Positions 45,843-49,199 of a stretch of 64,000 bases of DNA are shown here, one piece after another. Position 1 is the first letter of the stretch, and every line of letters starts with the position of its first letter. The notes under the pieces are model-generated. The model made no database searches. It was not told the origin of the DNA and saw only the letters and a list, made by a program, of their open reading frames with translations. The position numbers were made by a program, and so were the translations under genes. The stretch comes from Haloarcula vallismortis ATCC 29715 (GTDB lineage Archaea; Halobacteriota; Halobacteria; Halobacteriales; Haloarculaceae), in assembly GCF_000337775.1 (NCBI RefSeq), contig NZ_AOLQ01000007.1, positions 124,001-188,000 of the forward strand, given 5' to 3'.

Positions 45843-46847
45843 ATGAGTGAGCCAGTCCGCGTCGGCCTCAACGGCTTCGGCCGTATCGGCCGCAACGTAT
45901 TCCGCGCATCGTTACACAGCGACGACGTCGAGATCGTCGGTATCAACGACGTGATGGACGATTCGGAGATCGACTACTTCGCCCAGTACGACAGCGTCAT
46001 GGGCGAACTCGAAGGGGCAAGCGTCGACGACGGCGTCCTCACGGTCGACGGCACCGACTTCGAAGCGGGCATCTTCCACGAGACCGACCCCACACAGCTC
46101 CCGTGGGACGACCTCGACGTTGATGTGGCATTCGAAGCGACCGGCATCTTCCGCACCAAAGAGGACGCGAGCCAGCACCTCGACGCCGGGGCCGACAAAG
46201 TCCTCATCTCCGCGCCGCCGAAGGGCGACGAGCCGGTCAAACAGCTCGTCTACGGCGTCAACCACGACGAGTACGACGGCGAAGACGTCGTCTCGAACGC
46301 CTCCTGTACGACCAACTCCATCACGCCGGTGGCGAAGGTCCTTGACGAGGAGTTCGGCATCAACGCCGGCCAGCTGACCACGGTTCACGCATACACCGGC
46401 TCCCAGAACCTGATGGACGGCCCGAACGGCAAGCCCCGCCGTCGCCGCGCCGCCGCCGAGAACATCATCCCGACCTCGACCGGTGCCGCGCAGGCGGCCA
46501 CAGAGGTCCTGCCCGAACTTGAGGGCAAACTCGACGGAATGGCTATCCGCGTTCCGGTGCCGAACGGCTCTATCACCGAGTTCGTCGTCGACCTCGACGA
46601 CGACGTGACGGAAAGCGATGTCAACGCCGCCTTCGAAGACGCCGCCGCCGGCGAACTCGAAGGCGTGCTGGGCGTTACGAGCGACGACGTCGTCTCCTCG
46701 GACATCCTCGGGGACCCGTACTCCACGCAGGTCGACCTGCAGTCGACGAACGTTGTCTCCGGGATGACGAAGATTCTCACCTGGTACGACAACGAGTACG
46801 GCTTCTCGAACCGGATGCTCGACGTGGCCGAGTACATCACGGAGTAA
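45843..46847 (+). CDS. gap: Glyceraldehyde-3-phosphate dehydrogenase, bacterial (class I) type
   Basis: The 334-residue enzyme oxidises glyceraldehyde 3-phosphate with NAD(P)+ and phosphate. The Rossmann motif GLNGFGRIGRNVFRA opens the protein, the catalytic Cys155 lies in SNASCTTNS, and PNGSITEFVVD and WYDNEYGFSNR are present, all of the bacterial-type family rather than the archaeal class II enzyme. CTTTACAC about 31 bases before ATG 45843 is the likely TATA box. It is followed by pgk with an intervening candidate small RNA. Confidence 0.96.
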   Translation: MSEPVRVGLNGFGRIGRNVFRASLHSDDVEIVGINDVMDDSEIDYFAQYDSVMGELEGASVDDGVLTVDGTDFEAGIFHETDPTQLPWDDLDVDVAFEATGIFRTKEDASQHLDAGADKVLISAPPKGDEPVKQLVYGVNHDEYDGEDVVSNASCTTNSITPVAKVLDEEFGINAGQLTTVHAYTGSQNLMDGPNGKPRRRRAAAENIIPTSTGAAQAATEVLPELEGKLDGMAIRVPVPNGSITEFVVDLDDDVTESDVNAAFEDAAAGELEGVLGVTSDDVVSSDILGDPYSTQVDLQSTNVVSGMTKILTWYDNEYGFSNRMLDVAEYITE

Positions 46848-46905
46848 GCGCTGAAACGGTTTGGGACGCCAGTAAAGTTTATAATTATTATTCGCTAAGA
46901 ATAGG

Positions 46906-47049
46906 GCACACATAGAGTCCGAACCAGCACCTGACCCCTGTTCGGCTCTGTGTGTCGACACAGGCCCGTTTTCCCAGCCGGCGTGCTGTGTCCCGGCGCC
47001 GGCTGTGTACGGCGCAGGTGTCCCCACCACTCTCCGACCCCATTTTTTA
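46906..47049 (+). ncRNA. Candidate small non-coding RNA between gap and pgk
   Basis: A TATA-like TTTATAATTATT (46879-46890) lies about 25 bases before a highly structured stretch. Stem 1 (46908-46955) pairs CACACA, GAG, CCGAAC and AG with CT, GTTCGG, CTC and TGTGTG, with all bulges on one side. The palindrome TGTGTCGACACA (46952-46963) follows, then a 9-bp stem CAGCCGGCG/CGCCGGCTG (46976-47006), and a T6 run at 47044-47049. This is promoter, folded body and terminator in order. pgk has its own promoter-like GTTAAG near 47119. The ends are estimates. Confidence 0.5.
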
Positions 47050-47143
47050 CGTTGGCAGCAAGGCAGACCGCAGTGTTACCCCCAGCAGGTCGCTCGCTGT
47101 TCGGACTCGGAAACCGTTAAGCGGGCGGCAGGTTTCCTCTCGA

Positions 47144-48352
47144 ATGATGACTTTCCAGACGCTCGATGACCTCGACGATGGACAGCGCGTCCTCGTCCGA
47201 CTCGACCTCAACTCACCGGTCGAGGACGGCACAGTACAGGACAATCGACGGTTCGACCGCCACGCGGAGACTGTCAAGGAACTCGCTGACCGGGGGTTCG
47301 AGGTCGCAGTGCTGGCCCATCAGGGCCGCCCGGGCCGCGACGACTTCGTCTCGCTCGACCAGCACGCCGACATCCTCGCCGACCACATCGACCGCGACGT
47401 GGATTTCGTCGACGAGACCTACGGGCCACAGGCGATTCACGATATCGCCGACCTCGATAGTGGCGACGTGCTCGTTCTGGAGAACACGCGGATGTGTGAC
47501 GACGAACTGCCCGAGGAAGACCCCGAAGTGAAGGCCCAGACGGAGTTCGTCAAGACGCTGGCCGGGGAGTTCGACGCCTACATCAACGACGCCTACTCCG
47601 CGGCCCACCGCTCGCACGCCTCGCTCGTGGGCTTCCCGCTCGTGATGGATGCCTACGCCGGTCGCGTGATGGAGACCGAGTACGAGGCCAACACCGCCAT
47701 CGCCGAGAAGGAGTTCGACGGGCAGGTGACGATGGTCGTCGGCGGGACGAAGGCCACCGACGTCATCGACGTGATGACCCACTTAGACGAGAAGGTCGAC
47801 GACTTCTTGCTTGGCGGTATCGCCGGGGAACTGTTCCTGCGGGCCGCCGGCCACCCAGTCGGCTACGACATCGACGACGCGAACCTCTACGACGAGCAGT
47901 GGGAGGCAAACAGTGAGAAGATCGAGTCCATGCTCGAAGACCACCGGGACCAGATTACCCTCGCGGTCGACCTGGCCTACGAGGACGAGAACGACGACCG
48001 CGCCGAGCAGGCCGTCGACGACATCGACGAGAAAAGCGTCTCGTACCTCGACGTGGGCAGCGAGACCCTCATGGAGTACTCGCCGATCATCCGCGAGTCC
48101 GAGGCCGTCTTCGTGAAGGGCGCGCTAGGGATGTTCGAAGACGAACGGTTCTCGGTCGGGACTGCCGGTGTGCTCGAAGCCATCGCCGACACCGACTGTT
48201 TCTCCGTCGTCGGCGGCGGCGACACCTCACGCGCTATCGAGATGTACGGGATGGAAGAAGACGAGTTCGGCCACGTCTCCATCGCTGGCGGGGCCTACAT
48301 CCGGGCGTTGACCGGCGCACAACTGGTCGGCGTCGAAGTCCTCCAGCGCTAA
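47144..48352 (+). CDS. pgk: Phosphoglycerate kinase
   Basis: The 402-residue enzyme transfers phosphate between 1,3-bisphosphoglycerate and ADP. Seen are VLVRLDLNSPVEDGTVQDNR at the N-terminal substrate site, LAHQGRPGRDDFVSLDQHA, NDAYSAAHRSHASLVG, the ATP-site GGTKATDVI and the C-terminal VVGGGDTSRAI. ATG 47144 or 47147 (MMTFQTLDDLDDG) starts the conserved protein; the open frame from 46952 runs through the candidate RNA and is not coding. Together with gap it forms the lower glycolysis/gluconeogenesis pair. Confidence 0.96.
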   Translation: MMTFQTLDDLDDGQRVLVRLDLNSPVEDGTVQDNRRFDRHAETVKELADRGFEVAVLAHQGRPGRDDFVSLDQHADILADHIDRDVDFVDETYGPQAIHDIADLDSGDVLVLENTRMCDDELPEEDPEVKAQTEFVKTLAGEFDAYINDAYSAAHRSHASLVGFPLVMDAYAGRVMETEYEANTAIAEKEFDGQVTMVVGGTKATDVIDVMTHLDEKVDDFLLGGIAGELFLRAAGHPVGYDIDDANLYDEQWEANSEKIESMLEDHRDQITLAVDLAYEDENDDRAEQAVDDIDEKSVSYLDVGSETLMEYSPIIRESEAVFVKGALGMFEDERFSVGTAGVLEAIADTDCFSVVGGGDTSRAIEMYGMEEDEFGHVSIAGGAYIRALTGAQLVGVEVLQR

Positions 48353-48492
48353 CTGCGGCCTTTCGTCTCGGCGTGTCGCAGGTCCCAGTCGTTGCGTTCG
48401 TCGGGAACGTCGACGATCCGCCGCGTCTCGGTCGACTCCGTCCGTGCGTGGCGGGCAGTCCAGTCGTGGTCAGCGTCGGGCGTGGCTGCCAT
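48349..48492 (-). CDS. Small hypothetical protein, 47 aa, overlapping pgk end
   Basis: ATG 48492 opens MAATPDADHDWTARHARTES and the frame ends HAETKGRS at TAG 48349-48351, sharing four bases with the pgk 3' end. It is hydrophilic, rich in Arg, Asp and Thr, and contains no Cys. The composition (TETRRIVDVPDERNDWDLRH) looks like real haloarchaeal coding sequence, but I know no family. Expression evidence is needed to accept it. Confidence 0.5.
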   Translation of the reverse strand: MAATPDADHDWTARHARTESTETRRIVDVPDERNDWDLRHAETKGRS

Positions 48493-48620
48493 ACACTGCG
48501 TTACCAGCGGCGAGGGTAAATTCCTTCTGTCCAGAGTGTGTAAGTAATTACTCGATTCCGAGTCTATATTACGTCTCCGGGAAGCGAAGTGCTTTCCGCC
48601 AGCCGCGACGTATCTGGAGT

Positions 48621-49199
48621 ATGTTCACCGGAATCGTCGAGACGACCGGCGAGGTGCAGGCAGTCATCGATGACGAAGGCGGGCGTCGCATGCGGATCGG
48701 CGCGCCGTTCGAGGGACTCGACCACGGCCAGTCGATCAGCGTCAGCGGCGTCTGTCTCACCGTCGAGAAGGCGGCCGACGGCGAGTGGTTCGAGGTGTTT
48801 CTCGCGCAGGAAACCCTCGCCCGGACGTTCTTCGACGACCTCGACGGCGGTGACCGGGTGAACCTCGAACGGGCAATGCCCGCCGACGGCCGGTTCGACG
48901 GCCACATCGTGCAGGGCCACGTCGACACGACAGCCGAGGTTGTCGGTATCGAACAGGAGGGCGAGGACTGGACGTTCACGTTTTCCCTCCCGGAGGCCCA
49001 CCGGGACTATCTGGTACAGAAGGGGTCGATAACGGTCGACGGCATCAGCCTGACCGTCGCCGACCGGCGCTCCGAGGAGTTCGACGTGGCGATCATCCCG
49101 ACGACGTACGCCGAGACGACGCTGTCAGAGAAGTCGGTCGGCGACCCGGTGCATCTGGAGGTCGACGTGGTCGCGAAGTACGTCGAACAGTTGGCTTAA
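48621..49199 (+). CDS. ribE: Riboflavin synthase, alpha chain (lumazine-binding type)
   Basis: The 192-residue protein begins MFTGIVETTGEVQAV at ATG 48621 and shows two similar lumazine-binding halves (CLTVEK and GHIVQGHVDTTAEV, then SLTVADR). It disproportionates 6,7-dimethyl-8-ribityllumazine to riboflavin as a trimer. This is the bacterial-type enzyme, not the archaeal RibC. Its stop overlaps the convergent PrsW gene by four bases. Confidence 0.93.
   Translation: MFTGIVETTGEVQAVIDDEGGRRMRIGAPFEGLDHGQSISVSGVCLTVEKAADGEWFEVFLAQETLARTFFDDLDGGDRVNLERAMPADGRFDGHIVQGHVDTTAEVVGIEQEGEDWTFTFSLPEAHRDYLVQKGSITVDGISLTVADRRSEEFDVAIIPTTYAETTLSEKSVGDPVHLEVDVVAKYVEQLA

Follow-up and report, generated by a model that had tools for sequence, protein, structure and literature searches.

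The window, a 64,000-nt stretch of Haloarcula vallismortis DNA, carries two neighbouring glycolytic genes on the + strand. The upstream neighbour, gapI (45843–46847), is a 334-aa ORF encoding a bacterial-type glyceraldehyde-3-phosphate dehydrogenase, and the downstream neighbour, pgk (47144–48352), is an ORF encoding phosphoglycerate kinase; the gapI stop at 46847 and the pgk ATG at 47144 leave a spacer of 296 nt. The name gapI follows from the stretch WYDNEYGFSNR, which is of the bacterial GAPDH type, and from PMC10817205, in which a gapI/pgk operon of saccharolytic haloarchaea is described. A gap homologue is present in all 32 Haloarcula genomes, and pgk adjoins gap on the same strand in each of the 30 loci inspected. 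From 5′ to 3′, the spacer comprises a TATA box, two stem-loops (SL1 and SL2), a C/U-rich tail that ends in six Ts, a stretch of low conservation and the putative promoter of pgk. Past pgk (48349–48640), a 47-codon ORF on the reverse strand diverges from the riboflavin synthase gene ribC, with TACTCGATTCCGAGT (48549–48563) lying between the two; this divergent pair corresponds to the promoter pair HAH_2805/HAH_2806 of H. hispanica, which is reported to be bound by TrmB (PMC10817205).

The putative small-RNA promoter (46871–46893, + strand) was recognised by its conservation and spacing, and consists of a purine-rich, BRE-like stretch followed by the TATA box TTTATAATTATT, which occupies 46878–46889, one base upstream of the position (46879–46890) given in the initial annotation. 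Across 15 orthologues, mean pairwise identity reaches 0.77 in the TATA region, compared with 0.57 upstream of it and 0.49 in the spacer between the TATA box and the start site. In particular, the distance from the TATA box to the first stem is 27–30 nt in all 15 orthologues, as expected if transcription begins at the foot of SL1, and the predicted start of the transcript is about 46907, the 5′ edge of SL1. An exact match to the extended AT-rich TATA motif occurs once in the 3.9-Mb genome, and just one further site has two or fewer mismatches. Alternatively, the stem-loops may be part of the gapI 3′ UTR, protecting or terminating the gapI mRNA and possibly being released as a processed RNA. The element does start about 60 nt past the gapI stop, and T-runs occur in the short post-gapI spacer of many Haloarcula species that do not carry it, so that it sits in a terminator region. 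This reading, which we consider improbable, leaves unexplained why a TATA box stands 27–30 nt from the stem base in every carrier, and calls for two long stems, more than archaeal termination is known to need.

SL1 (46907–46955, + strand) and SL2 (46956–47024, + strand) were delineated from the fold, the alignment and covariation. In SL1, the arm beginning with ACACATAGAG pairs with the arm ending in CUCUGUGUGU, the stem running from 46908 to 46955, which bears out the first stem of the initial annotation. Its basal stem, ACACA.AGAG/CUCUGUGUGU, is near-invariant, whereas its apical stem, CCAG(ug)/(ca)CUGG, is variable; the basal helix is paired in 94.5% of cells and the apical helix in 87%, the latter with changes on both sides. 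Most of the basal pairs never vary and thus do not test the helix; this near-invariance suggests that the sequence is recognised besides the shape. Mean pairwise identity among the 15 orthologues is 0.72 in SL1 and 0.61 in SL2. SL2 is built on a long stem around CAGCCGGCG/CGCCGGCTG, the 9-bp GC stem noticed earlier, with an outer helix GACAC/GUGUC and an apical loop that holds GUG(A/U)CCC. The loop reads GUGACCC or GUGUCCC in 13 of the 15 orthologues; it is CUGACCC in L019, which we take to be H. marismortui, and the motif is missing in L022. In L028, whose score of 27.5 bits places it with the most divergent carriers, the SL2 architecture and the loop GUGACCC are kept with a largely different stem sequence. 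A 12-base palindrome reported at this place is present as TGTGTCGACACA, but it is not kept as a perfect palindrome in relatives, which have TGTGTCGGCACA there.

The 144-nt RNA has a predicted minimum free energy of −60.6 kcal/mol, compared with −42.9 ± 3.5 kcal/mol in dinucleotide shuffles (z = −5.06), and none of 200 shuffles folds as well. It ranks first in folding excess among 594 equally long windows drawn from the two strands of the 64-kb stretch, while its reverse complement, at rank 136, is unremarkable; the excess is thus confined to the + strand. In an alignment of the ten closer orthologues, 93.6% of cells are paired in the two-stem structure, 26–43% with partners slid by one to three columns. 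Cells changed on both sides number 14, against 5.8 in shuffles, and the covariation score is reached by none of 500 shuffles; since the shuffles do not correct for relatedness, this covariation is support for the structure rather than proof. The strongest compensatory case is the SL2 pair of columns 80 and 94, which is A-U in five sequences and G-C in five. The stems thus covary across relatives and, taken overall, are not broken by uncompensated changes; SL2 is nevertheless degraded in L016 and L022. Additionally, there are 36 G-U cells on the + strand and 14 A-C cells, which would be G-U if read on the − strand, and this wobble bias in the alignment favours the + strand. We also considered a DNA-level element, such as an inverted-repeat operator for a regulator that has no RNA function, and the near-invariant inverted repeat formed by the SL1 basal arms would fit it. 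Compensated changes in the apical SL1 and SL2 stems, the many G-U wobbles and a folding excess on the + strand alone are not expected of a duplex-DNA operator, and make this explanation very improbable.

The RNA would end in an unpaired C/U-rich tail (47025–47048, + strand), recognised from the sequence as the likely 3′ end or terminator. The T6 run noted before is present, but at 47043–47048 rather than 47044–47049, and it is not conserved: the corresponding tract of relatives is pyrimidine-rich and 7–20 nt long with a longest T-run of 2–6, and in many orthologues runs of T2–T5 lie inside it. The tail varies in length and has a mean pairwise identity of 0.44. Because the T-run is not conserved, termination ahead of pgk is not assured, and the predicted 3′ end is less certain than the start.

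A second promoter-like element in the spacer (47104–47143, + strand; GACTCGGAAACCGTTAAGCGG...) is the putative pgk promoter and would be of the leaderless type, with a TATA-like GTTAAG 28 nt before the ATG. Its mean identity is 0.91 in the 15 carriers, and of 15 genus members without the RNA, 13 have a related GAAAC-(C/T)TA(A/T) element equally far from the ATG. The core of this promoter is near letter-identical among the carriers, more than TATA and BRE alone seem to need, and a regulator site not yet recognised may lie within it (GACTCGGAAAC). A conserved promoter for pgk alone, with a related form in most species that lack the element, speaks for the element being dispensable for pgk expression and probably a separate small noncoding RNA, not a leader of pgk. 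The main rival to this reading is a cis-acting pgk leader, produced by read-through from the TATA box at 46878, in which SL1 and SL2 would tune pgk apart from gapI, as an attenuator or a stability element. Such a leader accords with the position of the element on the same strand immediately 5′ of pgk, with its occurrence only ever at the gapI–pgk locus and with the weak T-run of many carriers, which makes read-through plausible. We nevertheless judge it unlikely, because the pgk promoter is more conserved than the element and recurs in most non-carriers, because no Rfam cis-element matches, and because the approximately 50-nt stretch from the T-run to the pgk promoter is poorly conserved (0.54; 0.41 between groups), unlike a functional leader junction. 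On the other hand, gapI has been described with a cotranscribed pgk (PMC10817205), and cotranscription would place the region inside a longer mRNA, which counts against the small-RNA reading.

The orthologous element occurs at the same place, in single copy, in 15 of the 32 Haloarcula genomes. A covariance model, in which helix 3 was two columns off, still recovered all 15 orthologues and, when searched against the 32 Haloarcula genomes and 293 genomes sampled from the order, returned the same 15 carriers with one locus each. No convincing copy was detected in the other Haloarcula or in the 293 sampled genomes, and no further copy above 16.5 bits in the genome studied here; weak matches in G022, G144 and G190 were rejected as short GC-rich hairpin pieces only. 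Carriers include H. amylolytica, H. sebkhae, H. argentinensis, H. mannanilytica and H. salina, and non-carriers include H. rara, H. pellucida and Halomicroarcula rubra. The spacer measures 287–346 nt in the carriers and mostly 111–161 nt in the non-carriers, with the exception of L029, L030 and L033 (241–504 nt), whose extra length has no match to the covariance model. The 490–500-nt spacers of L030 and L033 apparently hold another insertion, possibly a small gene on the reverse strand. In a tree of the gap and pgk proteins, the carriers group as a single clade (branch support 0.996), most simply explained by one gain at the root of that Haloarcula branch. Within the carriers, conservation is arranged in islands, the TATA region and the two stem-loops standing above the spacers around them. 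L014 and L020, the latter presumably H. hispanica, have near-identical gap/pgk proteins and very different spacers, and L018 and L021 have in common an upstream spacer type that is absent in L019. Among L011–L028, spacer types do not track gap/pgk relatedness, which suggests recombination or fast turnover of the RNA locus between species.

Comparison with known RNA classes and with coding sequence yielded no assignment. The view that no frame here looks coding holds: a coding reading, including an in-frame extension of pgk by 64 codons, was rejected as relatives show frame-breaking gaps that are not multiples of three, and stops close the pgk-frame opening in most orthologues. The element was also put forward as undescribed, and this stands, since Rfam 15 contains no family that matches the locus at the gathering cut-off (a relaxed search gave chance-level hits, E = 0.18–8.4) and a full-text literature search of open-licence papers found no published description. 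H/ACA-type and C/D guide RNAs are likewise small structured archaeal RNAs with hairpins, yet they require box elements and conserved guides, and the element has neither. Specifically, a role as an H/ACA-type guide for rRNA modification would account for the two hairpins and for an ACA 14 nt from the SL1 pocket in nine of the 15 orthologues, but the triplet is GCA, CAG, AGA or GCT in the remaining six, SL2 is not followed by an ANA box, the internal-loop sequences that would serve as guides are not conserved and Rfam gives no match, which leaves this role with hardly any credibility. A C/D guide would have both a C box (RUGAUGA) and a D box (CUGA), and no C box was found in any of the 15 orthologues.

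The closest likeness is to the intergenic small RNAs of Haloferax (for example Hfx. mediterranei, PMC5852579), which are also intergenic, haloarchaeal and tens to a few hundred nucleotides long, adjoin metabolic genes and have mostly unknown targets. Unlike them, the element is known from sequence comparison rather than expression and is confined to a Haloarcula clade, with no sequence homologue in the 293 sampled genomes of the order. For an unannotated TrmB-induced transcript of about 200 nt in H. hispanica (peak 3), a role as regulatory RNA in carbon metabolism has been proposed (PMC10817205); that transcript resembles the element in being small, unannotated and from the same genus. We rejected identity of the two, because the novel transcripts in the S7 Fig legend of PMC10817205 lie antisense to HAH_2649 and HAH_0885, whereas ribC, which follows closely after pgk, corresponds to HAH_2806, so that peak 3 probably marks another locus, and because the spacer has no TrmB-like site.

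The initial annotation further suggested a regulator of glycolysis/gluconeogenesis acting in trans or on its neighbours, for which location is the one argument. This suggestion is not upheld: predicted pairing of the RNA with the gapI and pgk 5′ regions does not rise above shuffled controls in the carriers, save in isolated species, no TrmB-like site (TACT-N7/8-AGTA) occurs in any of the 15 carrier spacers, and the rest of the genus keeps gapI and pgk without the element. The exact complement of the C-rich tail has three sites in the genome studied here, compared with one for a control.

Taken together, the conserved TATA box at fixed spacing, the covarying stems, the strand-specific wobbles and the separate pgk promoter agree with the earlier proposal of a probable small RNA with its own promoter. 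At the sequence level, the observation of a real, conserved and undescribed structured element is confirmed, and the promoter, the + strand, the two-stem fold, the single origin and the independence of the pgk promoter are supported. Transcription itself, the precise ends of the RNA, its action in trans, Lsm binding and any targets are inferred. We propose, with some confidence, that the locus is an intergenic gene for a small noncoding RNA of about 140 nt, specific to this clade and most likely of the trans-acting antisense type. RNA polymerase would be recruited at the TATA box (46878–46889) and start at about 46907, and the RNA would fold into the two stem-loops followed by the unpaired C/U-rich tail and end at the pyrimidine/T tract near 47048, while pgk would be transcribed separately from its own leaderless-type promoter. 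The exposed C-rich parts, namely the SL2 loop GUG(A/U)CCC and the CCCACCCC-like tail, may base-pair with mRNAs encoded elsewhere, and the U-rich 3′ end would be a plausible binding site for archaeal Lsm/SmAP proteins. An extended form of this proposal, in which a Haloarcula-specific riboregulator arose once inside the gapI–pgk unit and links the horizontally acquired glycolytic gapI/pgk to mRNAs elsewhere via the GUGACCC loop and the C-rich tail, is speculative and rather doubtful.

By comparative evidence, the element is probably an ordinary small RNA gene that is limited to one archaeal clade. Few archaeal RNAs that act in trans have known targets. This element is single-copy, syntenic and structurally conserved, and it arose once, in a genus with a genetically tractable member, Haloarcula hispanica, and with sister species that lack the element and can serve as natural controls. 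Should it prove to be transcribed, it would offer a clean case for studying how an archaeal small RNA is born and what it does, and would qualify the usual description of gapI–pgk as a simple operon in this Haloarcula clade.
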